From positions 1 through 30,224 of the IMG/VR virus record IMGVR_UViG_3300029982_000049: a DNA stretch of 30,224 nucleotides, one strand, 5' to 3'. Position numbers and translations under genes: made by a program. Below the pieces are notes generated by a model that was not told the origin of the DNA, did not search any database, and was given only the letters and a program-made list of their open reading frames with translations. Of this stretch, positions 8,392-18,801 are shown piece by piece (the first letter of the stretch is position 1; each line of letters begins with the position of its first letter). The stretch is from a virus.

Positions 8392-8731
8392 AGCTTGCAA
8401 GTGGGCCCGCTTGAAAGGCTGTGTAGTAGCTAAGATGACGGAGTGTGACGGCGTCCCGGACAGAGTCTTCTTTGTGCCGGGTGGCCGTCCAATTGTCATT
8501 GAGTTTAAACGGAAGGGCGAGGTGCCTGAGGGTCTTCAGCACTGGTACCTTGACAAGCTTCGTGAGCTCGGCTACTACGCTCGTTGGTGCGATACATGGG
8601 AAGGCTTCTTGGAGATAGTCAATGGATTTAGTTCCAAAGTCAGTAGCACTAAAAATGGAAGAAAGCAAACGGACGGCAAAGGCTTGGACACCGTGGCCAT
8701 ACCAAGAGCGCGCTCTAAAGGCCTTGCTTGA
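8360..8731 (+). CDS. VRR-NUC domain nuclease
   Basis: The protein has 123 residues from a TTG start. PD-(D/E)XK motifs of the VRR-NUC family are clear: ETVLEARA (5-12), GVPDR (31-35, Asp34), IEFKRKG with Glu48 and Lys50, and Gln60. VRR-NUC proteins cut branched DNA such as Holliday or flap structures. The TTG at 8360 is preferred over a TTG at 8321 because the family usually begins just before ETVLEARA and AGGTGG is close upstream. The last 36 or so residues run beyond the domain and overlap the helicase gene for 110 bases, a long overlap; the domain itself ends around residue 88. Confidence 0.85.
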   Translation: MARRETVLEARACKWARLKGCVVAKMTECDGVPDRVFFVPGGRPIVIEFKRKGEVPEGLQHWYLDKLRELGYYARWCDTWEGFLEIVNGFSSKVSSTKNGRKQTDGKGLDTVAIPRARSKGLA

Positions 8732-10130
8732 GAACGGCCAGTATGGCCTGTTACTTCAGCCCGGACTTGGGAAAACGTCTGTAACATTGGCTGCAGTAAA
8801 GATTCTACTCGCTAAGAAACTAGTTAAGCGTGTCTTGGTTATAGCACCATTGCGACCTGCCTACGAGGTGTGGCCAGTAGAGGTTGCTGATTGGAAAGAC
8901 TTCAATGCTTTTGGTGTGGCGCTATTGCACGGGCTTGCCAAGGACAAAGTCCTGCGCAGCTTACAGCTAGAGCATCAGGTTGTGATTATCAACCCAGAAG
9001 GGCTAAATTGGCTGTTCAAAGACAAAAAGCGGGCGAAGCTTCTAGGCGCCGACATGCTTGTTATCGATGAGTCAAGCCTGTTTAAGTCTGGCACTTCAGT
9101 CCGCTTCAGAAGACTGCGGTCTGTGCTTGGCCAGTTCAAGCGCCGAGTTATTTTGACTGGATCGCCGCGGCCTAAGAACTATGAAGACCTATGGGCGCAA
9201 GTCTACTTGCTCGATCAAGGTGCCTCTTTGGGCAACTACATCACGCACTATCGCAATCAGTACTTCTTTCCAACAGGATTTCAAATGCGCGAGTGGTCGC
9301 TGCTGCCGGGCGCAGATGAGACGATCAACAAAAAGATTGCGCCGCTTGTTCTGCGAATGGACGCGGAAGACTATCTCAAGTTGCCGAAGCTGACTGATCA
9401 GACCCACTTTATTGAGCTGCCGCCTAAAGCACGTGAGCTTTATGAACAAGTAGAGTCGGGGCTTATGAGCACTTTGTTCACTGCTCCTATGGTGAACAGT
9501 ACAGCCGCGCGAAGTCGCTGTGCACAGATAGCTAACGGCTCAGTGTACTTAGACCCTACTGATCCGGACGACATTGAGTCTTGGAAGTCGTCTAGACGTC
9601 CAGTTCAGGTTGTACACACAGCAAAGGTAGAAGCTTTAATGGAGCTTGTGGGCGAGCTTCAAGGCGAACCACTTCTTTGCTCTATTGGGTACCATCATGA
9701 TGTAACAGCTATTCGTGTGGCGGCTGGCAAGGACACACCTTGTATCAATGGAGCTACTACGCGAACACAGCTGTCAGACTATATCACGCGATGGAACAAA
9801 GGATTGCTTCCATTGCTGATGATTCATCCAGCTGCGGCCGGCCATGGCCTGAATATGCAAAAGTGTAATGGGCGACACATTGCCATATTTGACCTGCCAG
9901 ACAACTATGATACCTACTTTCAGATGTTTCAGAGAGTCTGGCGTCAAGGCAATAAGGCTGACTTCTGTATCCGGCACCATTTCGTGGTCCGGAATACAGT
10001 AGACGTAGCTAAACTACGCAATCTCAGAAAGAAGGGTGACGGCCAGAAGGCTTTTCTCGATGCAATGAAGCAATATGCAGAGGAAAAAGGCCTGAAAATA
10101 AATGCGCCAAAGCCTAGAAAAGCGGTATAA
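8622..10130 (+). CDS. SNF2-family DNA helicase/translocase
   Basis: A 502-residue SF2 ATPase. Walker A is QPGLGKTS (46-53, Lys51), motif II is DESS (149-152), motif III is LTGSP (178-182), and motif VI is QRVWRQGNK starting at about Gln437. A Q-motif-like PYQERAL precedes Walker A. The full set of motifs suggests an active dsDNA translocase. SNF2-like helicases beside a VRR-NUC nuclease are a recurring phage pair, probably in recombination or fork processing. The start at 8622 has GGAG at 8611-8614. The last codons overlap a promoter -10 (10126-10131). Confidence 0.92.
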   Translation: MDLVPKSVALKMEESKRTAKAWTPWPYQERALKALLENGQYGLLLQPGLGKTSVTLAAVKILLAKKLVKRVLVIAPLRPAYEVWPVEVADWKDFNAFGVALLHGLAKDKVLRSLQLEHQVVIINPEGLNWLFKDKKRAKLLGADMLVIDESSLFKSGTSVRFRRLRSVLGQFKRRVILTGSPRPKNYEDLWAQVYLLDQGASLGNYITHYRNQYFFPTGFQMREWSLLPGADETINKKIAPLVLRMDAEDYLKLPKLTDQTHFIELPPKARELYEQVESGLMSTLFTAPMVNSTAARSRCAQIANGSVYLDPTDPDDIESWKSSRRPVQVVHTAKVEALMELVGELQGEPLLCSIGYHHDVTAIRVAAGKDTPCINGATTRTQLSDYITRWNKGLLPLLMIHPAAAGHGLNMQKCNGRHIAIFDLPDNYDTYFQMFQRVWRQGNKADFCIRHHFVVRNTVDVAKLRNLRKKGDGQKAFLDAMKQYAEEKGLKINAPKPRKAV

Positions 10131-10131
10131 T
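10126..10131 (+). promoter_or_regulatory. Promoter -10 element, TATAAT
   Basis: A perfect TATAAT lies at the end of the helicase gene, 33 bases before the DUF3846 start. No good -35 is seen at 16-18 bases. The segment from -10 into the leader (TATAATCATTTCAGCGCA) closely matches those at 15403 and 15801 (TATGATTATTTCAGTGCA and TATGGTTATTTCAATGCA), which supports a real promoter. Confidence 0.7.
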
Positions 10132-10137
10132 CATTTC

Positions 10138-10158
10138 AGCGCACTGGAAAGGGGCGCT
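10138..10158 (+). promoter_or_regulatory. Leader hairpin with the ribosome site in its loop
   Basis: AGCGC (10138-10142) pairs with GCGCT (10154-10158). The 11-base loop contains GGAAAGGG, the likely Shine-Dalgarno of the DUF3846 gene. The hairpin begins where the transcript from the 10126 promoter should start. Confidence 0.55.
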
Positions 10159-10163
10159 AGAAA

Positions 10164-10475
10164 ATGAAGAGAATTGAACAAGGTACTTTGTTTCCAGCTG
10201 ACGGTTCACCTGCCAAGATAGTCACTCCAGCAGATGGAAAAAAGTTTTCACTCGATGAGCTTCAGAAGTTTGTTGGTGGGTATATTGAATCCATTGTCTG
10301 CGTGAAGCCTTACGTCCGCGCTTTTGTCAATGAGGAGGGCGCTATCAAAGGCGATTTGCAAGATAACCCACATACCTGGTCAGTACTAAATCGCAAGGTG
10401 TACGCCTTAAACGGCTACGCAGAAGGCTTTCGTGTATCAGGCGACATCATTGCAGTACAGCTGGTGCAAGCATGA
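10164..10475 (+). CDS. DUF3846 domain protein
   Basis: The protein has 103 residues. LQKFVGGYIESI (33-44), NEEGAIKG and SGDIIAV near the C terminus match the DUF3846 pattern known from many phages and mobile elements, whose role is unknown. It is the first gene after a dedicated promoter and leader hairpin and heads a run of very small coupled genes. The basic N terminus ahead of the domain has no known motif. Confidence 0.75.
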   Translation: MKRIEQGTLFPADGSPAKIVTPADGKKFSLDELQKFVGGYIESIVCVKPYVRAFVNEEGAIKGDLQDNPHTWSVLNRKVYALNGYAEGFRVSGDIIAVQLVQA

Positions 10476-10765
10476 CCAACAAAGCCACAGAGTACCTAAG
10501 CATACCGGAGGGCGACCGCAATGTCGCCCTCCCAATGACGCTTGCAGAAGCTGATGCCAAGGCCAAGGAGCTGTACGGACCGAAAGCTTATGCCTTTGAT
10601 CGGTTATCACTGCTACCGGGCCTTTTAGACGCTAAGCCACTGCATACCTACATTGATGAAATAGGGCGGTACTACATCGGTGTAGGTGAGGCTCTGTACG
10701 GCAACGGCGCCACATGGAAAGAAGCATTCGCGGCGGCTGCAAAGATGGCAGAGGCGAGGCTATGA
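10472..10765 (+). CDS. Hypothetical protein, 97 aa
   Basis: ATGA overlap with the DUF3846 gene. The sequence is soluble and helix-rich (MTLAEADAKAKELYG, and EALYGNGATWKEAFAAAAKM at the end). No family recognised. The next gene overlaps its stop. Confidence 0.6.
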   Translation: MTNKATEYLSIPEGDRNVALPMTLAEADAKAKELYGPKAYAFDRLSLLPGLLDAKPLHTYIDEIGRYYIGVGEALYGNGATWKEAFAAAAKMAEARL

Positions 10766-10848
10766 CCCACCTTATTGATGTCTTACTTGGAGCAGTAGTG
10801 GGCATGGCTGCTATGCTTTATTTGCAGCGGCCTGGAGGTGGCCGGTGA
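10762..10848 (+). CDS. Single-pass membrane microprotein, 28 aa
   Basis: A 29-codon frame starts in an ATGA overlap and ends in a GTGA overlap with the next gene. It reads MTHLIDVLLGAVVGMAAMLY then a basic Gly-rich end (LQRPGGGR). One membrane helix with positive C-terminal charges predicts N-out, C-in topology. The coupling at both ends is the main evidence that it is translated. Confidence 0.55.
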   Translation: MTHLIDVLLGAVVGMAAMLYLQRPGGGR

Positions 10849-11051
10849 CTGACTTGCAGAAGGGTAGTACGTGTGAGTACACGGACTTGGGCGGCCAGAC
10901 ATGGGTTGGCACAGTTGAGTCTGTAGGCCGTAAGTACTGCGAAGTACCCCGCTGCGCAGACAACAGAGTGGAGCGTATGCTTCTGACTTCTGTGCGAGAG
11001 TTCACGTACTCTATCTTTCATGCTCGTGATTTTCTCAGAGGCGGACGATGA
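10845..11051 (+). CDS. Hypothetical protein, 68 aa
   Basis: A GTG start overlaps the previous stop, with GGAGGTGG upstream (10834-10841). The protein has a small beta-barrel look (GSTCEYTDLGGQTWVGTVES) with three cysteines. It could be a small SH3- or KOW-like fold, but that is only an impression. Confidence 0.6.
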   Translation: MTDLQKGSTCEYTDLGGQTWVGTVESVGRKYCEVPRCADNRVERMLLTSVREFTYSIFHARDFLRGGR

Positions 11052-11146
11052 TTCAAATCTGTGTTTATGTCTTTGTGGCCCTGGCTTTGGTACGCCAGAT
11101 CTGTGTTGCTGTTTACGTCATGCGCGGGAAAGGCGGCTTGAAATGA
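11048..11146 (+). CDS. Single-pass membrane microprotein, 32 aa
   Basis: ATGA overlaps at both ends link it to its neighbours. The sequence begins MIQICVYVFVALALVRQICV and ends with a basic RGKGGLK tail, consistent with one membrane helix. It resembles the 28-aa and 30-aa membrane microproteins elsewhere in the early region in size and layout, though not in sequence. Confidence 0.55.
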   Translation: MIQICVYVFVALALVRQICVAVYVMRGKGGLK

Positions 11147-11436
11147 AGATCATCAAGATCTACGAGCCGTCGCCATTTCACAACACAAGAGCACTGAATA
11201 TGCGTCAGCTTCTCAACCCTATCTTCTTTTCAGTAGACTGCCGGCACCCAGACCAGAAGCGACAGCGCTCCTCAAGACGTAGGACGCGAGCGCTACATAA
11301 TGCGCGTAATTTGAAGGCACAGCAGCTTACTTGGGTTCCAGACCTACCGACGACTGATGCTTGGGAGAAGTGGTTTGCGGCCCGTGGCTGGACTAGAATG
11401 GCTAGCGTACTGGGGAGGACTTTCGATGAGTACTAA
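11143..11436 (+). CDS. Hypothetical basic protein, 97 aa
   Basis: I start it at the ATG at 11143, which overlaps the previous stop; an in-frame codon at 11020 would cut across the membrane microprotein. The middle is strongly basic (KRQRSSRRRTRALHNARN) and could bind nucleic acid. The C terminus (WEKWFAARGWTRMASVLG) is amphipathic. No family recognised. Confidence 0.6.
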   Translation: MKIIKIYEPSPFHNTRALNMRQLLNPIFFSVDCRHPDQKRQRSSRRRTRALHNARNLKAQQLTWVPDLPTTDAWEKWFAARGWTRMASVLGRTFDEY

Positions 11437-11554
11437 GAGTCCCACTGGGCGGCTCAAGGGTATTAACGAGTCTGAACTGCAAAGTACTTCACTGTCTGTC
11501 GAGCACAGTGTTTGCGCGCATAAGTACTGGGCGACTGCAGACTTTCAATGCTAG
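11426..11554 (+). CDS. Hypothetical protein, 42 aa
   Basis: The ATG has a good GGGGAGGA at 11412-11419 and overlaps the previous gene by 11 bases. It is a small polar protein with Cys and His in its second half (EHSVCAHKYW). An in-frame codon at 11357 is too far upstream. Function unknown. Confidence 0.5.
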   Translation: MSTKSPTGRLKGINESELQSTSLSVEHSVCAHKYWATADFQC

Positions 11555-11745
11555 AACAACGCATACTAGCTGGTCCATTAGCAGCACAGGAGCCAAAGAA
11601 AGCTTCATTTCCTTATCGCTTTGGGTCAGCTAGTCTCATTGCAGCTTGTTCAGTAGAAGCACGCAGTGAGGACCGTATTCACCGGCTTCTTCTTGAGCTA
11701 GGTTATATCTACGACGTGAACACAGGAGAGTATCATGAAGCCTGA
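11548..11745 (+). CDS. Hypothetical protein, 65 aa
   Basis: The start lies inside the last codons of the preceding gene; no Shine-Dalgarno is visible, so coupling is assumed. The C-terminal half (SEDRIHRLLLELGYIYDVNTG) looks like a compact helix-strand unit. No family recognised. Confidence 0.5.
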   Translation: MLEQRILAGPLAAQEPKKASFPYRFGSASLIAACSVEARSEDRIHRLLLELGYIYDVNTGEYHEA

Positions 11746-11902
11746 AGATCTTACCAAGAAGCAGATGAAAGCATTGTTCAAAGCTCTGCACATGCTGGAT
11801 ATCGTCAACTTGTACGCCACGGGTGATCGGTTACGTAGAGCCTTTGGTGTAGAGCTGGAAGTAGTGAAGGCGCACAAGAAAGACGGGCTGGGCGATGACT
11901 GA
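11735..11902 (+). CDS. Hypothetical protein, 55 aa
   Basis: AGGAGAG (11724-11730) precedes the ATG. The 55-residue product is helical and basic (MKPEDLTKKQMKALFKALHM), with DRLRRAFGVELEVVKAHKK at the end. It overlaps both neighbours. The function is unknown. Confidence 0.6.
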   Translation: MKPEDLTKKQMKALFKALHMLDIVNLYATGDRLRRAFGVELEVVKAHKKDGLGDD

Positions 11903-12071
11903 GCTTAGTGAAGAGCAGCTTAGCAGAATGCGGCGGAATTTGCGTTTAATGGCTGAGTATGCAGCATGGTTTGCCATGAATGCACGTGCACCACAGCCCA
12001 CTACAAAGGTTGAGCAAGGGCACATAGGGTGCAAGAAGTCAAACTTACTGCCGCGTAAGGAGCAGCCATGA
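11895..12071 (+). CDS. Hypothetical protein, 58 aa
   Basis: Starts inside the end of the preceding gene and ends in an ATGA overlap with the DUF6011-like gene. The N-terminal half is an amphipathic helix (LSEEQLSRMRRNLRLMAEYA) and the C-terminal half is basic and disordered. No family recognised. Confidence 0.55.
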   Translation: MTELSEEQLSRMRRNLRLMAEYAAWFAMNARAPQPTTKVEQGHIGCKKSNLLPRKEQP

Positions 12072-12754
12072 CGACTGATCTACGCCTGTTCGGTCACCTG
12101 TTTGGTGTAGGCAAAGAAGAAGCGGATATGCTCAGTCGTCTGGCGGGGCCATGTCCTGCGCTCCACCAGCCTACAGCGCCTTTCATGGGCGGAGCAGCAG
12201 AGGCATTCCAAGCGCTCAATCGGCGGGGCAGAGAATCACTTGCCAAGATAGAAGTACTGACTGCCACCACTGTGAAGCTCCCTAAAGACAAACGGCGGGG
12301 CAAGCTCGATACCTGGCAGACTATTCATGAGTTCATCTATGCTGGCAATGCGCGCTTTACTTTGCTCAGTTTGAAGACTGGCCAGCGCTACACGTACAAG
12401 GTGCAGGTCAAGAAAGCCGACTTGGTACTGCATCCTGAAGATCCGGTGTACTTTGTCAACTTACTACGTGGTCCAGACAATACTGCAGACTATGCCTATA
12501 TGGGAGTAACAAGACGCAATGGGCAGTTCAATCGTACTAGTGCAAGCAAAGTAAGTGACCTTGCACAGAGCTATAAGTCTTGGGTTTGGTTCTTAGAGCG
12601 AATGCGATCAGAGCGCGCTGACGTACTTGGCGCCTTAGTAGAGTTTTGGCACGAGGGCCGGTGCTGCTGCTGTGGCAGAGTGCTAACTGTCCCAAGCTCA
12701 GTGCTAAGCGGCTATGGCGAAGTTTGTAGAAAGGCACGAAATACAGGTGCCTAA
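12068..12754 (+). CDS. DUF6011-like zinc-ribbon protein
   Basis: A 228-residue protein. The central region (YAGNARFTLLSLKTGQRYTY, then LLRGPDNTADYAYMGVT) matches a phage pattern with a beta-rich domain, and the C-terminal end EGRCCCCGRVLT with GYGEVCRK matches the DUF6011 zinc-binding signature. Known homologues are common in phage early regions with no assigned function; binding nucleic acid through the zinc site is a reasonable inference. ATGA overlap at the start. A TATAAT promoter element begins six bases after its stop. Confidence 0.7.
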   Translation: MTTDLRLFGHLFGVGKEEADMLSRLAGPCPALHQPTAPFMGGAAEAFQALNRRGRESLAKIEVLTATTVKLPKDKRRGKLDTWQTIHEFIYAGNARFTLLSLKTGQRYTYKVQVKKADLVLHPEDPVYFVNLLRGPDNTADYAYMGVTRRNGQFNRTSASKVSDLAQSYKSWVWFLERMRSERADVLGALVEFWHEGRCCCCGRVLTVPSSVLSGYGEVCRKARNTGA

Positions 12755-12760
12755 CTGCAG

Positions 12761-12766
12761 TATAAT
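12761..12766 (+). promoter_or_regulatory. Promoter -10 element, TATAAT, for the pyrimidine-dimer glycosylase gene
   Basis: TATAAT is preceded by ACTGCAG, the same context as at 15403 and 15801. The next ATG is only six bases downstream, so a transcript starting at the normal distance would have virtually no leader. No clear -35 is visible. Confidence 0.6.
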
Positions 12767-12772
12767 TAATCT

Positions 12773-13102
12773 ATGCGAATGTGGATGATTGACCCAAAGA
12801 TCCTGTGTCGTAAGCACCTGCTAGGTGAGCACGTTGAAATACATATGCTTGTCGGTAGCCTGCAGCGAAAGCGCTCCATAGCCGGCTTCTTAAACCAAGG
12901 TATTCTCGAGCCTCAAAACGCGCTTAAGCGCCATGCTGCTTTAGTTGCCGAGATGCAATTGCGTGGCTACAAGCATGCTTCGAAGCTCCAGGACGTCCCA
13001 CATGGAGCTCCTAGTGGCCATGTTGACCAGGTAAGCTCACTTACTGCTCTGCTGGCGCGCTGTGAGGCTTGTTCTACGCGCTATAATGATCTTAGGAGCT
13101 AA
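12773..13102 (+). CDS. Pyrimidine-dimer DNA glycosylase (endonuclease V family)
   Basis: The N terminus, MRMWMIDPKILCRKHLLGEH followed by VEIHMLVGSL, is the hallmark of the Pyr_excise family related to T4 DenV. These enzymes excise UV-induced cyclobutane pyrimidine dimers and cut the abasic site. LCRKHLLGEHVEIH corresponds to the conserved core with the active-site Glu (about residues 19-23). The length (109 aa) fits the short phage form. No Shine-Dalgarno precedes the ATG; it may be read from a leaderless transcript or by coupling. A useful enzyme for a phage exposed to light or in a host with weak repair. Confidence 0.88.
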   Translation: MRMWMIDPKILCRKHLLGEHVEIHMLVGSLQRKRSIAGFLNQGILEPQNALKRHAALVAEMQLRGYKHASKLQDVPHGAPSGHVDQVSSLTALLARCEACSTRYNDLRS

Positions 13103-13106
13103 TTGT

Positions 13107-13352
13107 ATGCGAACCTTTGAAGTTGAAGACGCTGTAGTACCAATGCTTGCACTTGCAGTAGCTATGGCTGTTCATGAACGACGGCTTGTTGCAATGGAGA
13201 ATGTTGATTCTTCTAGTCTAGCTTCTCAGCAGGTTCGCAGAGAGATTGCTCAGTTAGAGGACTTTCTCTCGAAGCTGAATGCGCCATTACCGGCTTTGCA
13301 CACCTTATTGGCGCAAGAAGAGCAACGGGCCGTTAGCTCAATTGGTCAGTAG
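13107..13352 (+). CDS. Hypothetical protein, 81 aa, 3' end inside a tRNA gene
   Basis: The ATG at 13107 has TTAGGAG (13093-13099) in front; an in-frame codon at 13062 lacks this. The product is largely helical (LALAVAMAVHERRLVAM, then QQVRREIAQLEDFLSKL) and may form a coiled coil. Its last eight codons lie within the tRNA gene starting at 13327, so the C terminus (AVSSIGQ) is dictated by tRNA sequence. Confidence 0.6.
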   Translation: MRTFEVEDAVVPMLALAVAMAVHERRLVAMENVDSSSLASQQVRREIAQLEDFLSKLNAPLPALHTLLAQEEQRAVSSIGQ

Positions 13353-13404
13353 CACACGACTCATAATCGTTAGGCTGCAGGTTCAAGTCCTGCACGGCCC
13401 ACCA
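13327..13404 (+). tRNA. tRNA with CAT anticodon (Met or Ile2), CCA encoded
   Basis: The acceptor GGGCCGT pairs perfectly with ACGGCCC, followed by discriminator A and an encoded CCA (13402-13404). The T arm GCAGG-TTCAAGT-CCTGC is perfect. The anticodon arm (ACGA CTCATAA TCGT) gives CAT in a seven-base loop, but the base pair next to the D arm is a C-T mismatch. The D stem has only three clear pairs (GCT/AGC). The body resembles tRNA-Ile2(CAT), which needs lysidine at the wobble base, as much as elongator Met, so identity is open. Confidence 0.88.
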
Positions 13405-13461
13405 AGTTTAGTACTTTCATGGATGCATTAATATGGCGATCCAGCAACCTAAACCCTAACC

Positions 13462-13483
13462 GTAGCAAGGAGACTTAAACTAC
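13462..13483 (+). promoter_or_regulatory. Leader hairpin with AAGGAG in its loop
   Basis: GTAG (13462-13465) pairs with CTAC (13480-13483); the 14-base loop carries AAGGAG, the ribosome site of the gene starting at 13485. The stem is short, so it is weak alone but fits a pattern seen at neighbouring genes. Confidence 0.35.
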
Positions 13484-13484
13484 C

Positions 13485-13754
13485 ATGGCTAAAATCAATA
13501 TCGTCCTCAGTCCGAAGCAGCTCGCCAATCTCGTCACTGCTTTGCAGGGCGCACCCAAGCAAAGCAAGACTGTCGAAGTACTCACGGCGAAGTTCACGGC
13601 TGTAGAAGTGCCTGAAAATGCGAAGAAAGTTACACTGACAATCAGTGGCGCAGAGGCACAGAACACAGTCAAGGCTCTCGGAACACTGCCCAAGCAGACT
13701 GCTACTGTGATCGCGCTCTTCGGCAAGATCAGCGCCGCCCTGGGTGCCGAGTAG
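13485..13754 (+). CDS. Hypothetical protein, 89 aa
   Basis: The start has AAGGAG at about 13467-13472. The protein is soluble and contains two similar halves: VTALQGAPKQSKTVEVLTAK and VKALGTLPKQTATVIALFGK. This suggests an internal duplication of a roughly 40-residue unit. It stands alone between a tRNA and a hairpin, so it is probably transcribed separately. No family recognised. Confidence 0.65.
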   Translation: MAKINIVLSPKQLANLVTALQGAPKQSKTVEVLTAKFTAVEVPENAKKVTLTISGAEAQNTVKALGTLPKQTATVIALFGKISAALGAE

Positions 13755-13775
13755 CACTTGTAATTTAGTGTATTA

Positions 13776-13802
13776 TGGTCCATTCACTCCGTGGATGGAC
13801 CA
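13776..13802 (+). terminator. Terminator-like hairpin without a T run
   Basis: TGGTCCATTCAC (13776-13787) and GTGGATGGACCA (13791-13802) form a 12-base stem with one G-T pair and a 3-base loop. The following CATTTGTGTG is only mildly T-rich. It separates the 13485 gene from the next promoter. Confidence 0.5.
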
Positions 13803-13810
13803 CATTTGTG

Positions 13811-13819
13811 TGTTATAAT
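13811..13819 (+). promoter_or_regulatory. Extended -10 promoter
   Basis: TGTTATAAT is an extended -10 (TG-n-TATAAT), 31 bases before the ATG at 13850. No -35 is obvious, as is usual for extended -10 promoters. Confidence 0.65.
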
Positions 13820-13824
13820 ATGCT

Positions 13825-13846
13825 CAGTAGTTTGAAAGGACTGCTG
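13825..13846 (+). promoter_or_regulatory. Leader hairpin with AAAGGA in its loop
   Basis: CAGTAG (13825-13830) pairs with CTGCTG (13841-13846) over six positions, one of them a U-G wobble. The 10-base loop TTTGAAAGGA holds the Shine-Dalgarno. The stem begins at the expected transcript start for the 13811 promoter. Confidence 0.6.
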
Positions 13847-13849
13847 ACT

Positions 13850-14167
13850 ATGAAAAACCTGGATCCTGTAGAGCGGCTTCGGAAAGACTTTGCTCGCATC
13901 CTGGACGCGATAAGTACGTTGCACGGCGTTCACACTCCAGCGCAAAAGAACCGACGCATTTCCCCCAATGATTCGCGTCAAGTAAAACTTCTGGTGCGCA
14001 AAAACCCTCACAAACCGAAGACAAAAGCTTGGGCAGCATTTGAGATTCTGAAGCATTGTCGTACTGCACGCGACTATGTGCGTACTGTGCACAAGACTGC
14101 AGGCGACAAAGTAATTATGGGCTACCTCAACTGGGCCGTTAATCGTGGGTACGCACGACTCATGTGA
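13850..14167 (+). CDS. Hypothetical protein, paralogue A, 105 aa
   Basis: Start at 13850 after the leader hairpin. The C-terminal half, from NPHKPKTKAWAAFEIL to MGYLNWAVNRGYARL, is 31/53 identical by hand alignment to that of the gene at 14295. The layout (basic N-terminal part, N-P-x(4)-T/S-K-x-W/H core, then a W-x-V-x-x-x-Y end) resembles small C-terminal domains common in phage proteins that carry 'GSKS...F...Y' motifs. Function unknown; the basic charge suggests nucleic-acid binding. Confidence 0.7.
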   Translation: MKNLDPVERLRKDFARILDAISTLHGVHTPAQKNRRISPNDSRQVKLLVRKNPHKPKTKAWAAFEILKHCRTARDYVRTVHKTAGDKVIMGYLNWAVNRGYARLM

Positions 14168-14171
14168 GTGC

Positions 14172-14208
14172 TTATTGGGCCGTATGTGCTTTGCGTACGG
14201 CCCAATAA
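14172..14208 (+). terminator. Strong hairpin between paralogues
   Basis: TTATTGGGCCGTA (14172-14184) pairs perfectly with TACGGCCCAATAA (14196-14208). On the plus strand there is no T run after it, but the A/T end pairs might still aid release. It could act as a terminator or as a 3' stabiliser for the transcript. Confidence 0.6.
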
Positions 14209-14271
14209 ATACGACGTCAGTGAGCAAAAGTGAACGCACTTGAAAGACCACTCCGGTAGACAATGTAACTA

Positions 14272-14288
14272 GCGGTCTAAGGAGCCGC
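14272..14288 (+). promoter_or_regulatory. Leader hairpin with AAGGAG in its loop
   Basis: GCGG (14272-14275) pairs with CCGC (14285-14288); the 9-base loop TCTAAGGAG ends in the ribosome site. The same leader, TAGCGG then AAGGA then CCGCCACTCA, recurs at 16025-16050 in front of the 624-residue gene. Confidence 0.55.
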
Positions 14289-14294
14289 CACTCA

Positions 14295-14666
14295 ATGCCA
14301 AATATTCTTGCGAAGATCGGATCGAAGTCAGTACTTCCGCCGTACATGCGCATCAAGGTACTACCAGCTACAAAGGCTTCGTTCAGTAGGCGTGCAAATA
14401 ACCCGCCACAAATATTGCTCAACCGTCGTGCAGACGATATGCAGGCTCATCGTGTGTCTGTTTGTGATACTCGTAATGCGCGTCTTCTGACTCAGACCAA
14501 TCCACACAGAGCGCACACTAAGTCTTGGGTAGCTTTCGAAATCCTGCGTCAATGCAGGACCGTGAAAGAATATGTAAAGTCGGTTCGTGCTGTGACAAGT
14601 GACAAGTCGACTATGGGCTACCTCAATTGGGCTGTGAATCACCAATATGCCAAGTTGACTGCTTAG
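14295..14666 (+). CDS. Hypothetical protein, paralogue B, 123 aa
   Basis: Tandem paralogue of the gene at 13850: the C-terminal region NPHRAHTKSWVAFEIL to MGYLNWAVNHQYAKL aligns without gaps. The N-terminal part (about 1-60) is different, basic and low in hydrophobic residues. The leader is unlike that of paralogue A, so the copies appear to be under separate control. Flanked by hairpins on both sides. Function unknown. Confidence 0.7.
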   Translation: MPNILAKIGSKSVLPPYMRIKVLPATKASFSRRANNPPQILLNRRADDMQAHRVSVCDTRNARLLTQTNPHRAHTKSWVAFEILRQCRTVKEYVKSVRAVTSDKSTMGYLNWAVNHQYAKLTA

Positions 14667-14680
14667 GCAGCAAGTAAAGC

Positions 14681-14706
14681 GCGCCGGCTATCAAGTTTGC
14701 CGGCGC
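14681..14706 (+). terminator. Hairpin after paralogue B
   Basis: GCGCCGGC (14681-14688) pairs with GCCGGCGC (14699-14706) across a 10-base loop. The following CTAAAATAAACTTT has no compact T run, so termination efficiency is uncertain. A new promoter follows directly. Confidence 0.6.
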
Positions 14707-14717
14707 CTAAAATAAAC

Positions 14718-14747
14718 TTTAAAAATGTAGTATTTCCACTGTATAAT
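14718..14747 (+). promoter_or_regulatory. Promoter for the 14769 gene pair
   Basis: TTTAAA (14718-14723) and a perfect TATAAT (14742-14747) are 18 bases apart. Translation starts 21 bases after the -10, with GTGAGG as a moderate ribosome site. Confidence 0.6.
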
Positions 14748-14768
14748 TATTGAAGTGAGGAAATTTAC

Positions 14769-14900
14769 ATGACTGGACACCAGCTCTTCTGGCTGTGCGC
14801 TCTCGTAATTCAGACGATTCCCTTGGCAGTATTCCCGCATGTATTTGCATGGTGGAGAGAATTTGCCGCTGAGAACTTTGTTCAGGAGCGTGACAAATGA
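14769..14900 (+). CDS. Membrane microprotein, 43 aa
   Basis: A 44-codon frame immediately follows a promoter and ends in an ATGA overlap with the next gene. The sequence MTGHQLFWLCALVIQTIPLA then VFPHVFAWW gives one hydrophobic segment of about 25 residues, followed by a charged tail (REFAAENFVQERDK). Function unknown. Confidence 0.6.
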   Translation: MTGHQLFWLCALVIQTIPLAVFPHVFAWWREFAAENFVQERDK

Positions 14901-15097
14901 ACTACGGAATCTTGATTGCGATCAGTAAATCTGGTTTTCAGATCGTGGGCGCTGTGGACACCTTGAACGAGGCGCATGAGTTAGCCGGCGAGTATGTCAG
15001 GTTTGGGCCAGACAGTGGCTACCTTGCGCCTGAGTATTTCGAAGTCCATAGTCGTGGGCAATATGGTGGGTACACCATTGTGCAACGCCTGAAATAG
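14897..15097 (+). CDS. Hypothetical protein, 66 aa
   Basis: ATGA-coupled to the membrane microprotein. The protein is mixed alpha/beta (YGILIAISKSGFQIVGAVDT, then a helix NEAHELAGEYVRF) with a C-terminal strand YGGYTIVQRL. It resembles small stand-alone alpha/beta phage proteins of unknown role. Its last codons are part of a 33-bp direct repeat. Confidence 0.6.
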   Translation: MNYGILIAISKSGFQIVGAVDTLNEAHELAGEYVRFGPDSGYLAPEYFEVHSRGQYGGYTIVQRLK

Positions 15098-15124
15098 TCT
15101 GAATTTTGTCGTTGCAAACTCTAG
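15092..15124 (+). repeat. 33-bp direct repeat, copy 1
   Basis: These 33 bases, starting AAATAGTCTGAATTTTGTCG, recur exactly at 15759-15791. The repeat contains the stop codon of the upstream gene and the -35 TTGCAA of the downstream promoter, so it is a duplicated promoter module. Confidence 0.9.
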
Positions 15125-15139
15125 TTTCTGTAGTATGAT
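15112..15139 (+). promoter_or_regulatory. Promoter of the 15156 gene
   Basis: TTGCAA (15112-15117) and TATGAT (15134-15139) are 16 bases apart. The -35 part lies in the 33-bp repeat. The leader ends in GGAGCACAGACA before the ATG, as at 15435 and 15833. Confidence 0.7.
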
Positions 15140-15155
15140 TTCAGGAGCACAGACA

Positions 15156-15386
15156 ATGACTGAATGCGAGTTTCACACCACTTTCTACGGCCCGCGTAAT
15201 ACGCCCAATCGTGAAAAGCTGTGCAAGCATCTTGGAATTACTGGCTTTGCTGGTTTGAGTTTGAAGCGCATGGGCTGGACCGGTTTTGTCAATGCTCTTG
15301 GCGACTACCACGGGCTTGATGTGCGCAATTTTAGCTGCCAAGCAACCTTTATGGATGCCATCGCAGAAAAAATAAAACTGCTATAA
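15156..15386 (+). CDS. Hypothetical protein, 76 aa
   Basis: The ATG at 15156 is chosen with GGAG at 15143-15146; an upstream in-frame ATG at 15135 falls inside the promoter -10 and would not be transcribed. The protein has FYGPRNTPNREKLCKHLG then ITGFAGLSLKRMGWTGFVNAL; no family recognised. It is the first of three small genes using the same leader cassette. Confidence 0.6.
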   Translation: MTECEFHTTFYGPRNTPNREKLCKHLGITGFAGLSLKRMGWTGFVNALGDYHGLDVRNFSCQATFMDAIAEKIKLL

Positions 15387-15402
15387 AGCGCAGAATCTGC
15401 AG

Positions 15403-15408
15403 TATGAT
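15403..15408 (+). promoter_or_regulatory. Promoter -10, TATGAT, of the 15435 gene
   Basis: TATGAT follows CTGCAG, as at 15801 (TATGGT) and 12761 (TATAAT). No -35 match is found in this copy. The segment CTGCAGTATGATTATTTCAG is nearly identical to the 15795 copy. Confidence 0.6.
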
Positions 15409-15415
15409 TATTTCA

Positions 15416-15429
15416 GTGCAGAGGAGCAC
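15416..15429 (+). promoter_or_regulatory. Leader hairpin with AGAGGA in its loop
   Basis: GTGC (15416-15419) pairs with GCAC (15426-15429) around the 6-base loop AGAGGA. It begins at the expected transcript start. The third copy of the leader (15815-15826) keeps three of these pairs; the first (15143-15150) has lost the 5' arm. Confidence 0.5.
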
Positions 15430-15434
15430 AGACA

Positions 15435-15764
15435 ATGATTGCCAAAATCGAGTGGAAAGTGGCCGAAGCGCCTACCGGAAAGTATCGTTCATTTCAGCGC
15501 CGTGGATGGCCCACTGGCACCATCAATGGTTGTGCTGCTGTGTCGCTCTATGCTGACAATGACTACTCAAAGCAGGCCGCAGAAGGCGGCTCGGTCATTA
15601 CTGTGTGCGTGGCTGACTGGACTGTCGGTCAGACTGCTGAAGGTAAGGCTAAGTATGGCGCATTTACATGGCGCACACTGAAGGCACGCGCAGCCACCCT
15701 GAAGGAGGCTAAAGATCTTGCGGTACGCTTCCACGCAGCTCATCCAGAGTACACCTCAAAATAG
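15435..15764 (+). CDS. Hypothetical protein, 109 aa
   Basis: Begins after the shared GAGGAGCACAGACA leader. The product is beta-rich in the first 70 residues (IEWKVAEAPTGKYRSFQRRG, then INGCAAVSLYAD) and helical at the end (LKEAKDLAVRFHAAHP). No family recognised. Its end lies in the second copy of the 33-bp repeat. Confidence 0.65.
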   Translation: MIAKIEWKVAEAPTGKYRSFQRRGWPTGTINGCAAVSLYADNDYSKQAAEGGSVITVCVADWTVGQTAEGKAKYGAFTWRTLKARAATLKEAKDLAVRFHAAHPEYTSK

Positions 15765-15791
15765 TCTGAATTTTGTCGTTGCAAACTCTAG
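15759..15791 (+). repeat. 33-bp direct repeat, copy 2
   Basis: Exact copy of 15092-15124, 667 bases downstream. Again it spans an upstream stop codon (AAATAG) and the -35 of the next promoter. Confidence 0.9.
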
Positions 15792-15806
15792 AAACTGCAG
15801 TATGGT
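15779..15806 (+). promoter_or_regulatory. Promoter of the 15833 gene
   Basis: TTGCAA (15779-15784) and TATGGT (15801-15806) with 16-base spacing, the same geometry as the 15112 promoter. The -10 departs from consensus at the fifth base, so it may be weaker. Confidence 0.65.
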
Positions 15807-15832
15807 TATTTCAATGCAGAGGAGCACAGACA

Positions 15833-16000
15833 ATGATTTTTACCTGGGCTGATGTTGAAGATTTTCTTACGTATAGGCCTTGGATTTTGGCTCATGTGCG
15901 AGCTATTTATGGCGAGTACGTACTAATTTGTGGCGGCGCAGTAGCGACTGATGATGCTACAGTTGCTATGCGCATGTTGTATGATGCCGCTGGAATTTAG
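15833..16000 (+). CDS. Hypothetical protein, 55 aa
   Basis: The ATG at 15833 follows the third copy of the leader cassette; a longer in-frame start at 15773 would lie upstream of the promoter. The product starts MIFTWADVEDFLTYRPWILA and ends in a small Ala/Met-rich helix. Function unknown. Confidence 0.55.
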   Translation: MIFTWADVEDFLTYRPWILAHVRAIYGEYVLICGGAVATDDATVAMRMLYDAAGI

Positions 16001-16025
16001 CAATTACGTAGTGCAATTGATTGTA

Positions 16026-16044
16026 GCGGCTCAGAAAGGACCGC
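16026..16044 (+). promoter_or_regulatory. Leader hairpin with AAAGGA in its loop
   Basis: GCGG (16026-16029) pairs with CCGC (16041-16044); the 11-base loop CTCAGAAAGGA contains the ribosome site of the 16052 gene. The leader matches that at 14271-14293. Confidence 0.5.
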
Positions 16045-16051
16045 CACTCAC

Positions 16052-17926
16052 ATGACCAAAGCAAAGGCCACGACGACAGCGCCTCTCAAAGGCAAGACGA
16101 AGGCCGCCTCCAAGGCTGTCAAAGCAGCTCCAGTGAAGAAGGCCACAGCGGTTCCAGTGAAGAAACCTGTGCCGGCCAAGAAGACCGCTCCCAAGACTGT
16201 ACCGGCTAAGAAGGCTACAGTCTCCCCAATGTCGGCTAAAAAATCACCGTCTAAGGCCGCCAAGAAGACCAGCGAAAAGACGTCGGCCGCGCCCAAGGGT
16301 GCTGCTTTGACAGCGCCAGTGGCGAAGGCCATGCCTACAGCAGCCGACGCCTGTGTGGCTGCTATTCTTGCCTCTGGTTTTGCCCTGCAGCGCAGTGACA
16401 CTGTCGACAAAGTGGCCGCGTATGGTTATGGTGACGCAAATGGTCGAGCTGTTCTGCTGACTGTGAAGACTGATGGTGATACTACTTGGACACTTGTAGC
16501 TGCAGATGGAGGCAGTAGATGCGGTGGCAAGGACGCTGAAACACTGAAAGTTGCCCTTGAGCGCCGTGCACCAAAAGCAGAGGCGCCCCCGCCTTTGCCC
16601 CATGTGATTCGTGCTATTGAGCAGCTGCGAGTGGCTACCAAGGGCACATATGCAGCGCATGAACTGCGTGGTGACGATAATTACCCTGTACGTCTGCGGA
16701 TCCTTAAAAGTGCTCTCAAAACTGACAAGGTTCTGGTCGAGCAGAGTGGCATCAATGCAGTTGTTAAGACACTATATGGGCTGCTTGATGTGCCGCCGGC
16801 TTCGATTGCTGCGCAGCGTACATGGTTTGCAGCGGCCTGCACCAAGGTTCTTGCGGCATCGCGCAAGGCTGATCGTGAGCACGACAAGGCTGAGAAAGCT
16901 CTCATTGAGAAAGAATTACGCCGTACAGTTTTTGAGCGTATGGTCCCTGGAACTATTTTGCCGCCGCCAACAAAGCACTTGGGCAAGAAAGCCCAGGCCG
17001 AGAAGGACGCTGCCGATAAGCTGGCAATTTACCAGGAAGCTCAGATTGCTGCTATGTGTCCTGAGAGGCCAGCGGAGCAGGTCGCGAAACCCAAGAAATC
17101 TACTGAAAAGGAGGACTACCAGGCCGACCTTGCAGTCATCGATGACGGGTCAGAAGAGCGTGCAGGTGCTCCCCTAGCGGGTTCTACGGCCTACCGTGCA
17201 GAGGACATCTGGCTTATGGAGCACACGATGACTGGTCTGGTGCTGCTAAAGCTCGAAAAAAGTAACTCGCAGGGCGCCATTTGTGTGTATAATAATGGTA
17301 ATAGAGTTGCTTGTGGCGTTGTGCCAATCGAGACACTCTTAAAGTTCAAGCGGATAGAGGATGTGGACATTCTTGAGTCCGTTCGCCAATTATTGAAGCC
17401 GGCTATTCCCGGCGTGATAATCACCCCCGTGGCAGAACGCCACTTAAACGCAGTCTTGCACTGTAAGGAGCTAGCAGCCATGACCTTTGCCAAGAAGTCT
17501 TCCGCCAAGAAGTCCACCGATGTTGTTGAAACCGCCAAGACCAAGAAGTTTGCCGCACCTGAAAAGGCGTCCAAGAAGCCCATCGTCGCCAAGAAGCCTG
17601 TTGTTGTCGAGACTGAAGCAACTGCAAAGCCTTCCAAGGCCAAGAAGGCCGCGAAGGAAACCGCTGAGCCCTCCGCTCGTAAGAGCTCTTTGTTCCGCCT
17701 GAAGAACGACTCAAAGGCCACCTGGAGTGCGTTCAAGGGCCAGAAGGCTGAGCTTGTGCAGGCTTTCATTGACCTCAGTGCAGTGGGCGCAAAAGCTGCC
17801 GGCGTGACGCGTGGCGCTTTGATCGATGCTCTGCCGAACATCGGGCCAAAAAACATAAGCTTTTATTTGAGCACCTGGCAGTCCGGGGACGCCCCGATCG
17901 TCGAGAAGTTGGCAGCTGCAGAGTAA
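16052..17926 (+). CDS. Large basic protein with two histone H1-like tails, 624 aa
   Basis: Residues 1 to about 95 form a Lys/Ala/Pro tail with repeated AKK, PVKK and PAKK units. Two to three folded regions follow (about 95-175; about 180-330, containing a charged helix; about 385-470). A second Lys-rich tail (about 477-550) and a C-terminal domain (from SSLFRLKNDSK to STWQSGDAPI) end the protein. H1-like tails bind DNA without sequence preference, so a role in compacting or guarding phage or host DNA is inferred. An in-frame ATG at 17480 with AAGGAG upstream marks the start of the second tail; the gene may be a fusion or may make a second, 148-residue product. No enzyme motif seen. Confidence 0.75.
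   Translation: MTKAKATTTAPLKGKTKAASKAVKAAPVKKATAVPVKKPVPAKKTAPKTVPAKKATVSPMSAKKSPSKAAKKTSEKTSAAPKGAALTAPVAKAMPTAADACVAAILASGFALQRSDTVDKVAAYGYGDANGRAVLLTVKTDGDTTWTLVAADGGSRCGGKDAETLKVALERRAPKAEAPPPLPHVIRAIEQLRVATKGTYAAHELRGDDNYPVRLRILKSALKTDKVLVEQSGINAVVKTLYGLLDVPPASIAAQRTWFAAACTKVLAASRKADREHDKAEKALIEKELRRTVFERMVPGTILPPPTKHLGKKAQAEKDAADKLAIYQEAQIAAMCPERPAEQVAKPKKSTEKEDYQADLAVIDDGSEERAGAPLAGSTAYRAEDIWLMEHTMTGLVLLKLEKSNSQGAICVYNNGNRVACGVVPIETLLKFKRIEDVDILESVRQLLKPAIPGVIITPVAERHLNAVLHCKELAAMTFAKKSSAKKSTDVVETAKTKKFAAPEKASKKPIVAKKPVVVETEATAKPSKAKKAAKETAEPSARKSSLFRLKNDSKATWSAFKGQKAELVQAFIDLSAVGAKAAGVTRGALIDALPNIGPKNISFYLSTWQSGDAPIVEKLAAAE
17465..17482 (+). promoter_or_regulatory. Internal ribosome site and in-frame ATG
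   Basis: AAGGAG (17465-17470) stands nine bases before the ATG at 17480 in the frame of the 624-residue gene. A TATAAT (near 17289) lies about 190 bases upstream. Translation from here would give the second Lys-rich tail plus the C-terminal domain. Confidence 0.5.
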
Positions 17927-17949: not shown

Positions 17950-17979
17950 ATGACCCACAGACCATCGTGGGTCATTTCT
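17950..17979 (+). terminator. Rho-independent terminator before thyX
   Basis: ATGACCCAC (17950-17958) pairs perfectly with GTGGGTCAT (17967-17975) across an 8-base loop, followed by TTTCT. It closes the 624-residue gene's transcript. Confidence 0.7.
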
Positions 17980-18012
17980 ACGCCTCTAAAACCAAACAAT
18001 ACGAAGGAGCTT

Positions 18013-18801
18013 ATGGAGTTTATTCAACCACAGGTATTCCATGTTGCGCAGACCACACTTGATCCTGGCGGGCTTCACGACTATCTTACTGCTGTAGGTG
18101 TGCCAACTTGGACCAGCGATGCCCCGAGTCATGCTGAGGCGCTTCAAGAGGTTATGGGGCGAACTTGCTACAATTCTTTCAAGGTCGGTCTCAATCCTAA
18201 TGTGACACGTATTAGGGAAGGTAACTCCACTTATTTAAAGAGTATCGTAGAGTCAGGGCACGGCTCAGTGCTCGAGCATGCGTGTGACTCTTGGATGCTG
18301 TTCAATATTAGTCGTGTTGTTACACACCAAATTGTTCGGGCCCGCGCTGGTACTAGTTTCAGCCAAGCCAGTGGCCACTACATCCGGGTTGACGGCATTA
18401 AGAGCTGGTTCCCACAAGTACTAGAAGACCATCCACGACGTGCTGAATTGTTTGACTTCTATCGTACGCGATTTAAGAGCCTCGAGCAGGCCCAGATTGA
18501 GCTAGCCCAGCTTCTTGATGTGGACAATCAGCCATTCAAGATGAAGAAGAAACTAACGACCGCAATGCGCAGGTTAGTTCCTGACGGCATCGCCACGGTT
18601 CTTGGCTTTACAGTTAATCACCGCCAGCTTCGCTTTATGATCGAGCAACGTACATCAGCAGCCAACGATGAAGAAATCAGAATTGTGTTTTTTAAGATCT
18701 TCGAGCAAGCTATAAAACTTTACCCTAATATGATGTTTGATGCTGATGTAACTATAGTCGAAGGCCTTGAAGAAGTCACATTTGCCAATAAGAAAATCTG
18801 A
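18013..18801 (+). CDS. thyX: Flavin-dependent thymidylate synthase ThyX
   Basis: This enzyme makes dTMP from dUMP with FAD and methylene-tetrahydrofolate. The protein has 262 residues. Family marks are SGHGSVLEHA (81-90), SRVVTHQIVRAR (100-111), and TVNHRQLRFMIEQR with NDEEIR in the C-terminal part. The signature RHR-x7/8-S-x-RY is altered: it reads RARAGTSFSQASGHY (109-123), with Ala110 in place of His, Ala119 where Glu is common, and His122 where Arg is usual. The start at 18013 has AAGGAG (18005-18009 region); an in-frame ATG at 17950 lies within the terminator hairpin. It heads the nucleotide-metabolism block with dCMP deaminase and the pyrophosphohydrolase. Confidence 0.88.
   Translation: MEFIQPQVFHVAQTTLDPGGLHDYLTAVGVPTWTSDAPSHAEALQEVMGRTCYNSFKVGLNPNVTRIREGNSTYLKSIVESGHGSVLEHACDSWMLFNISRVVTHQIVRARAGTSFSQASGHYIRVDGIKSWFPQVLEDHPRRAELFDFYRTRFKSLEQAQIELAQLLDVDNQPFKMKKKLTTAMRRLVPDGIATVLGFTVNHRQLRFMIEQRTSAANDEEIRIVFFKIFEQAIKLYPNMMFDADVTIVEGLEEVTFANKKI

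Follow-up and report, generated by a model that had tools for sequence, protein, structure and literature searches.

Recurring leader hairpins around the ribosome site at the predicted mRNA 5' ends of an uncultured phage and its relatives

Why should a phage repeatedly place a short hairpin, with the Shine-Dalgarno (SD) sequence in its loop, at the head of its messages? The question arises from the window, the stretch of 30,224 nucleotides of IMG/VR virus record IMGVR_UViG_3300029982_000049 analysed here, in which a sequence-only reading had pointed to six such leaders between positions 10,138 and 16,044. The hairpin pattern is largely real. Computation shows that the stem has a fixed place relative to the predicted transcription start, that compensatory change preserves it and that it is present above chance in relatives of the phage.

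Hairpin leaders in the window

When window leaders were folded in silico as transcripts of 60-120 nt, five of the six proposed hairpins, all on the + strand, formed as described. Two of these, both predicted to be 5'-terminal, follow exact TATAAT -10 boxes at 10126..10131 and 13814..13819. The first hairpin (10138..10158, AGCGC-(11)-GCGCT) carries the SD AAAGG in its loop ahead of the ATG at 10164, and the second (13825..13846, CAGTAGT/ACTGCTG) encloses the SD ahead of the ATG at 13850, its seven pairs being joined by two U-G pairs in which the SD takes part. The hairpin at 15416..15429 (GTGC/GCAC, SD AGAGGA in the loop, ATG at 15435) follows a TATGAT box at 15403..15408, and its stem pair probability is 0.35 in a 60-nt fold at 37 C versus 0.98 in a 120-nt fold. 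The hairpins at 14272..14288 (ATG at 14295) and 16026..16044 (ATG at 16052) both have GCGG/CCGC stems with the SD in the loop and lie behind weak -10 candidates with two mismatches, GACAAT at 14259..14264 and TGCAAT at 16012..16017, respectively. The gene behind the former is a paralogue of the gene at 13850.

Transcription starts were assumed from the positions of the -10 boxes. The proposal that the hairpins at 10138, 13825 and 15416 begin where transcription should begin is borne out on this basis, the first paired base lying at +7, +5 to +7 and +8 after the box, respectively; behind the two weak boxes it lies at +8 (14272) and +9 (16026). The 10138 hairpin also has a positional counterpart in contig L005, near 17401, with the stem AGCGG/CCGCT. 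The sixth proposed hairpin, at 13462..13483 (+), was rejected as a chance 4-bp match: its pair probability is 0.2-0.5 and a competing fold wins, no TATAAT-like box lies just upstream, and the L005 homologue (36-39% identical) has no stem.

Two further cassettes on the + strand, which the earlier list had omitted, are paralogues of the 15416 leader. That at 15801..15833 (TATGGT box, ATG at 15833) retains an eroded stem of 3 bp with an A.C mismatch, and that at 15134..15156 (TATGAT box, ATG at 15156) lacks the 5' arm. An Rfam scan of the window yielded, above the gathering score, only a tRNA at 13327-13401 and matched no leader stem; a simple consensus scan of 9900-16200 found seven terminator-like sites, none of which is a leader stem.

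Tested singly against shuffles, the leaders at 10138 (z -3.3) and 13825 (z -5.3, with an equally good fold in 0 of 200 shuffles) fold better, and those at 14271, 15416 and 16025 do no better (z -0.9, -1.1 and -0.5). A strict anchored test, requiring a score of 12 or more, was applied to the window's phage, comprising the window and its longer contig G001. Two of six exact-TATAAT leaders passed, and at least as many did so in 10/1000 shuffles and in 141/1000 arm swaps; when one box mismatch was allowed, 2 of 27 passed, a count reached by 103/1000 shuffles and 194/1000 arm swaps. Because this test is weak, the pattern in the window's phage is suggestive only and does not by itself prove the hairpin pattern, whereas it is clear in relatives. 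Three contigs (L001-L003) represent the same phage, with 99.98-100% identity across 16335 nt, and are therefore useless for covariation; they were also all that searches with the small genes at 13850 and 15435 recovered.

Anchoring and covariation in related phages

The comparison set consists of six contigs, that of the window's phage and five related ones. In three relatives found by their DNA polymerase (P3, P4 and P13), 9 of 21 exact-TATAAT leaders have an anchored stem around the SD at a score of 12 or more. This count was reached by 0 of 1000 shuffles (mean 0.90, maximum 5) and by 0 of 1000 arm swaps (mean 2.0, maximum 6), so that comparison with shuffled leaders, weak in the window's phage, is decisive here. 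At a score of 11 or more, an anchored stem is found in 16 of the 41 exact-TATAAT leaders of the six contigs and is absent from 25, against a shuffle mean of 2.96, and contigs that are unrelated or distant have it in 1 of 106; such counts are not independent, since many leaders are related cassettes. One leader counted in these sets, L052:10266, folds elsewhere and leaves its 5' end unpaired (0.97).

Of 103 TATAAT sites, 17 have a stem that starts at +7 and 20 one that starts at +8, and each of the other 48 offsets accounts for 2-11; in control contigs +7 and +8 account for 69 and 82 of 1493, inside the range of 53-89 at other offsets. By a looser count, a stem starts +5 to +10 after TATAAT at 39/103 sites, compared with 13/103 for an interval moved by 20 nt, 23/103 for one moved by 40 nt and 222/1497 in control contigs. 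Arm spacing, loop lengths and stem or half-site sequences vary between leaders, and G-U pairs occur in several stems.

The covariation score of the stem bases is 0.314 versus 0.140 when shuffled (0 of 500 as high), and it is at most 0.137 when slid. Two weaker measures are less clear, namely pairs changed on both sides (5 versus 3.1 shuffled, 27 of 500 shuffles as high) and the number of pair types (11 versus 8.5, 34 of 500 as high). Two orthologous pairs were compared: the hairpin is identical in L054/L265 (59% protein identity), and in L055/L264 an A-U pair is swapped for G-C. The excess in relatives, the anchoring, the covariation and the orthologues together support the suggestion that selection acts on structure and not on stem sequence.

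Possible functions of the start-anchored hairpin

On a slight balance of probability, the leaders are copies or relatives of one compact initiation cassette with a 5'-sealing, mRNA-protecting hairpin. In such a cassette, transcription would start at about the seventh or eighth base after the TATAAT -10 box, a hairpin of 4-8 bp whose loop holds the SD would form from the first transcribed nucleotides, and 3-7 nt beyond the stem the start codon would follow. The stem would deny RppH-type pyrophosphohydrolases the single-stranded 5' end and would likewise block 5'-end-dependent RNases (RNase E/G or J); with that end removed, the phage message would be longer-lived. A 5' UTR of no more than about 20-28 nt brings the SD inside the hairpin, where the loop would keep it available. 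Ribosome binding would open the hairpin, but the bound ribosome probably spans the entire leader, so that the 5' end would stay protected whether the hairpin is closed or open.

Predicted openness, expressed as the median unpaired probability, was compared between 28 hairpin leaders and 79 controls, the latter being poorer in G+C (41% versus 55% in seven family stretches). The first four bases are unpaired at 0.25 in the leaders and 0.99 in the controls, a low value that arises partly by construction, as the leaders were chosen for their hairpins. The SD (0.80 in the 25 of 28 leaders scored, versus 0.82) and the AUG (0.89, versus 0.88) are about as open as in controls. Spacing between SD and AUG is 7-10 nt with the 3' arm included, an indication that initiation requires an opened stem. 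In the 28 promoters, a -35 box matching TTGACA occurs with one mismatch in 3 and with two in 8, where shuffles expect 0.5 and 4.7.

The sequence-only reading had offered mRNA stability, ribosome access or a phage RNA-binding regulator as reasons for the design. Ribosome access is not visibly improved. Protection of the mRNA 5' end fits best, because the constant feature is a stem placed at the first nucleotide of the predicted transcript and two leaders (L260:5322 and L262:11858) keep the start-anchored stem with the SD downstream, outside the hairpin. A protective role would thus be the likeliest for the hairpin.

A translational operator is a rather unlikely explanation. Its hairpin would be bound by host CsrA/RsmA or by a phage protein, which would block or modulate the SD in the loop. 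According to PMC8346122, CsrA recognises GGA when a hairpin presents it in its loop close to the ribosome-binding site, and the GGA of the SD region can be displayed in this way. Counted anywhere in the leader and not in the loop alone, GGA is present in 26/28 leaders and A-N-GGA in 17/28, but the other 11 lack A-N-GGA. Although the host may encode CsrA, the family (PF02599) matched none of the six phage contigs, which may be incomplete, and the phage stem, unlike CsrA/RsmA hairpins, is tied to the transcription start. Variable loop lengths and stem sequences argue against an operator of either kind, including the regulator proposed earlier, as do the two leaders whose hairpin does not contain the SD.

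It is unlikely that the hairpin serves as a structural insulator, which before unrelated genes would stop the SD from pairing with downstream coding sequence and make expression predictable. The genes do differ, as among the six phages only 5 of 31 queried proteins are matched from their beginning in a second phage, and SD and AUG are predicted to be mostly unpaired; however, SD openness does not exceed that of controls richer in A+T, and leaders with the SD outside still keep the hairpin. Very unlikely is a DNA-level dyad, that is, a repressor or activator operator placed immediately after the -10 box, of which the RNA hairpin would be a by-product. The inverted repeat does occupy roughly positions +1 to +21 of the transcript, where operators are common, but half-sites differ and arm spacing varies between leaders, several stems contain G-U pairs, and covariation preserves pairing, not sequence. 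The least probable and disfavoured explanation is that structure is not selected at all, a few cassettes with an inverted repeat having been duplicated and the rest being chance: related cassettes share arms, the strict test is weak in the window's phage and the stem is not intact in two of the window's copies, but neither shuffles nor arm swaps reach the count in the polymerase-defined relatives, and the +7/+8 anchoring and compensatory change also oppose it.

Known systems, wider searches and significance

The protective reading has counterparts among cellular mRNAs. In the ompA and papA mRNAs of E. coli, a stem at or very near the 5' end is expected to leave RppH and RNase E no single-stranded terminus to act on, and the SD lies downstream of the stem. 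In the aprE leader of Bacillus subtilis, a single host gene is concerned and stem and SD are separate. Titles cited in PMC3997798 name ompA and papA for 5'-terminal stabilising stem-loops and aprE for a 5' stem-loop together with ribosome binding. Like the ompA and papA stems, the phage stem lies within a few nucleotides of the (predicted) mRNA 5' end, as the +7/+8 peak indicates, and its structure is kept by compensatory change. Unlike them, it mostly bears the SD in its loop within the short 5' UTR, and it is found, together with its promoter, in front of many genes of a single phage; the loop-borne SD and the promoter cassette also set it apart from aprE. The promoter early stem-loop cassettes (PeSLs) of T4-like phages (PMC4503421) are likewise recurring composites of promoter and stem-loop in phage genomes, but the cited title describes them as promoter-terminator motifs, whereas the stem considered here coincides with none of the terminator-like sites from the consensus scan and lies between the -10 box and the start codon, in the leader, usually holding the SD. 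Open-licence literature searched by topic phrases did not describe this layout. On the protective reading, the phage cassette would be a new form of the 5' stem-loops already known to protect mRNA, one that recurs as a unit with its promoter.

Searches beyond the six contigs added few leaders. Nine non-identical loci with relatives of the 10164 gene showed no comparable leader, most matches beginning inside the protein, with the true leaders out of view; L010 alone had a match that began at residue 1. When viral contigs were scanned for the pattern, 82 stretches emerged, by eye mostly without a stem, of which L070/L112 were useful and new, and a second scan returned 13, of which L170, L172, L174 and L175 were new. 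Among the rest, an RNA model gave a borderline match at L167:3941-3985 (E 0.042). In a scan of bacterial genomes (82 stretches), some stem was seen in 16 of 80 examined matches and judged by eye to be chance. In L179 and L213 the distance to a start codon is that of a leader, but the model scores are weak (E 1.6 and 3.9). A polymerase scan of genome contigs found no relative. A guess about the host directed the search to an Acidobacteriota MAG and its phylum, where distant polymerases (36-37% identity) occur in 2 of 297 genomes; no such leader was found in three stretches from these genomes, and the RNA model, run with stricter filters and no positive control, found nothing in 60 of the phylum. 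Nor does Stenotrophomonas phage AXL_3, among the nearest named phages (38% polymerase identity), have such a leader.

If the protective reading is true, these phages hold a natural minimal design in which about 40 bases join transcription start, 5'-end protection and ribosome binding. Its repeats with different stems would let evolution reveal the rules of stem position, stability, loop size and SD placement, and start-anchored hairpins with the SD inside or outside offer a direct test of 5'-end protection versus translational control. The design would also aid the annotation of transcription units in uncultured phages and supply compact parts for stable expression. More tentatively, an uncultured phage clade may use a mobile and self-contained start cassette of about 40 nt that fuses promoter, cap-like 5' hairpin and ribosome site; with its 5' end sealed by either the hairpin or the initiating ribosome, each acquired gene would receive a long-lived mRNA whatever its coding sequence.

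Hairpin leaders in the window

The sequence-only reading had proposed six leaders, spread over 10138-16044, in which the Shine-Dalgarno sequence (SD) lies in a hairpin loop near the mRNA 5' end. Folded from the predicted transcription start, the leaders at 10138, 13825, 14271, 15416 and 16025 do form such hairpins, with outer-pair probabilities of at least 0.89 (120-nt transcripts, 37 °C), but the sixth, at 13462, yields no hairpin and a pair probability of 0.22, and is rejected as a hairpin leader. A tRNA-Met gene with a CAT anticodon (13327-13404) lies directly upstream of that rejected leader. Compared singly with shuffled sequences, two leaders stand out, 10138 at z -3.3 and 13825 at z -5.3; the others do not. 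The unit comprising a -10 box (TATAAT), predicted start, short hairpin, SD and start codon is here called a cassette; the 15416 cassette has two sister copies that the earlier list had missed, one with a stem reduced to 3 bp (15801) and one without the 5' arm (15134).

Under a strict test requiring a stem anchored at the predicted start (score at least 12), 2 of 6 exact-TATAAT leaders qualify in the window and G001, a 60.6-kb contig of the same phage (99.98% identity across 16335 nt). This count was matched by 10 of 1000 shuffles and 141 of 1000 arm swaps between leaders; with one box mismatch allowed, the count of 2/27 was matched by 103 and 194, respectively. The window's phage alone therefore leaves the pattern unproven. 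An internal hint comes from the paralogous genes at 13850 and 14295 (54% over 69 residues), whose leader sequences share the layout with quite unlike stems (CAGTAGT/ACTGCTG versus GCGG/CCGC).

The window comprises an entire IMG/VR phage record (30224 bases), in which PHROG matches identify genes for a DNA polymerase at 4425-6338, a helicase at 8622-10130 and a thymidylate synthase at 17950-18801. The gene at 16052-17926, without a PHROG match, encodes 624 residues; by eye, stretches rich in Lys, Ala and Pro and resembling histone tails lie close to the N terminus and recur at about residues 480-560.

Stem excess and position among related phages

Relatives found by polymerase search include the contigs L005 (74%), L004 (62%) and L155 (59%), plus shorter or more distant ones. 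Two more contigs came from a DNA-pattern scan that demanded part of the 5' arm and not the 3' arm: G012 (helicase 65%; polymerase in two segments at 62% and 55%) and the 43.6-kb G006, in which a polymerase match was sought and none found. In L005, the first leader of the layout past the helicase reads TTATAATAATTTC-AGCGG-atcagaaagga-CCGCT-agaa-ATG, its AGCGG/CCGCT stem standing against AGCGC/GCGCT at the post-helicase leader of the window, and a later one reads TTATAATGATTTC-AGTGC-ttagaaagga-GCACT-tcaaa-ATG. At L005 19810-20290, in the open frame that follows this contig's second hairpin leader, an array of an approximately 18-base repeat (seen by eye) encodes a repetitive protein.

Across six contigs (the window's phage and five relatives), 41 leaders have an exact TATAAT together with an SD and, 12-46 nt further along, a start codon. 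A stem at +6 to +9 after the box, enclosing the SD and scoring at least 11, is present in 16 of them, against a mean of 2.96 (maximum 6) in 300 dinucleotide shuffles and 4.0 (maximum 9) in arm swaps. With one box mismatch allowed, 23/140 leaders qualify, against 5.6 in shuffles and 6.2 in swaps. Unrelated or distant contigs gave 1/106 in the exact test and 12/716 with the mismatch, a comparison that favours stems in the family because the controls are poorer in G+C (41% versus 55% in seven family stretches); this difference is accounted for in the shuffles and swaps. With the window's phage and the two pattern-found contigs excluded, a score of at least 12 is reached by 9/21 leaders of the polymerase-found relatives (shuffle mean 0.9, swap mean 2.0), a count attained in none of 1000 shuffles and none of 1000 swaps. 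The two pattern-found contigs gave 5/14, against 0.3 and 0.9.

In bacteria, transcription typically starts 7-8 nt downstream of the -10 box. When downstream context is ignored, 103 TATAAT sites are followed by 17 stem starts at +7 and 20 at +8, compared with 2-11 at the remaining offsets up to +50, whereas at 1493 control sites the counts at +7 and +8 (69 and 82) fall inside the 53-89 range of other offsets. The Fisher value for this anchoring, 2e-10, is a guide only, since a single leader may count at both positions. Besides the leaders it was trained on, a covariance model retrieved L260:5322, which has an AGTGGC/GCCACT stem at +7 and the SD downstream of the hairpin; L262:11858 (GCAGC/GCTGC at +8) resembles it. 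The hairpin position can therefore persist with the SD outside, and the constant feature is a stem starting where the -10 box would begin transcription.

The layout was seen in contigs with polymerases roughly 60% or more identical to that of the window, plus G006. Four short contigs with 64% polymerases (L145-L148, 4.3-10.3 kb) had no leader match. Among 35 other sources, a set that takes in AXL_3, a named phage, and 12 viral contigs whose polymerases are more distant, the lowest covariance-model E value was 0.14, in L068, a source outside those twelve. A possible further leader on a viral contig, L167:3941-3985 (GCGT/ACGC, long loop), is borderline (E 0.042), and its ATG opens no listed ORF of at least 30 codons.

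Among 28 hairpin-leader promoters from the six phages, 21 have a G at -4 before the -10 box, 17 have an A at -31, and TTGACA-like boxes are only moderately enriched; this signature is possibly that of a phage-specific or host-specific promoter type. At 12761-12766 a TATAAT stands 6 nt ahead of the start codon of gene 12773-13102, and the A of this ATG, as the seventh base, occupies the stem-start position of other leaders, so that the mRNA may be leaderless; the L005 homologue (near 18686), by contrast, carries an SD of the GGAGG type. An inverted repeat at 13776-13802 (TGGTCCAT/ATGGACCA), immediately 5' of the 13814 promoter, scored as terminator-like and carries an anti-SD-like CTCC in its loop; such terminator-like sites are no commoner than in shuffles.

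Covariation and inheritance of the cassette

Compensatory change in related phages is borne out by a MAFFT alignment of 26 leaders, picked for their hairpin except for 15801 and L052:10266, which are imperfect. Covariation over the six stem pairs scores 0.314, compared with 0.140 in shuffles (0/500 as high) and at most 0.137 with the partner slid, and cells changed on both sides number 21 versus 7.7 (0/500). Pairs with change on both sides (5 versus 3.1; 27/500) and further pair types (11 versus 8.5; 34/500) are less clear measures. Several leaders are misaligned by eye, which lowers the score, while shuffles overstate independence because the cassettes share ancestry, a bias that the slid control and arm swaps partly address.

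For only 5 of 31 queried proteins was there a match, from the start, in any other of the six phages. Upstream of genes 59% identical, L054:12294 and L265:13436 share a 19-base block containing a 15-base hairpin, beyond which the bases differ. At L055:16168 and L264:12317 (downstream genes 58-65% identical), the stems are AGCGC/GCGCT and GGCG/CGCC, the outer A-U having become G-C. As a counter-case, orthologues of the L260:6452 gene in L056 (76%) and L264 (52%) lack any TATAAT within 60 nt; sequence comparison thus suggests that the cassette may be gained and lost as a unit. Within the window, duplicated promoter-leader cassettes of 90-94% identity (15092-15140/15759-15807 and 15392-15440/15790-15838) precede different small genes, a sign of the cassette moving or being copied as a unit.

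Ribosome access and a proposed protective role

Median predicted openness in 28 hairpin leaders is 0.25 for the first four bases, 0.80 for the SD (25 scored) and 0.89 for the AUG, compared with 0.99, 0.82 and 0.88 in 79 control leaders; the low 5' value arises partly because the leaders were chosen that way, a caveat that does not touch the SD and AUG figures, which resemble those of the controls. The set of 28 includes L052:10266, whose fold is a different one. All 26 SD-in-loop leaders have an SD-AUG distance of 7-10 nt; in 134 other genes this distance varies widely around a median of 7.

The hairpin could possibly act as a translational operator, for instance a CsrA-like one, as an insulator against variable coding sequence, or as a DNA operator. 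Our proposed reading is protection of the 5' end. According to PMC3997798, B. subtilis RppH requires at least two unpaired 5' nucleotides, a requirement that a stem beginning at base 1 or 2 would defeat. Because the leader is only about 20-28 nt long, the SD can hardly escape the hairpin and so lies in its loop. The stem would open on ribosome binding, since its 3' arm sits between SD and AUG, and the bound ribosome would then cover the leader. The hairpin leaders had no Rfam match, and searches of open-licence literature yielded no description of the layout. We class it as a putative protective 5'-terminal stem-loop of the known kind, new in its fusion with the ribosome site and its carriage as a promoter cassette.
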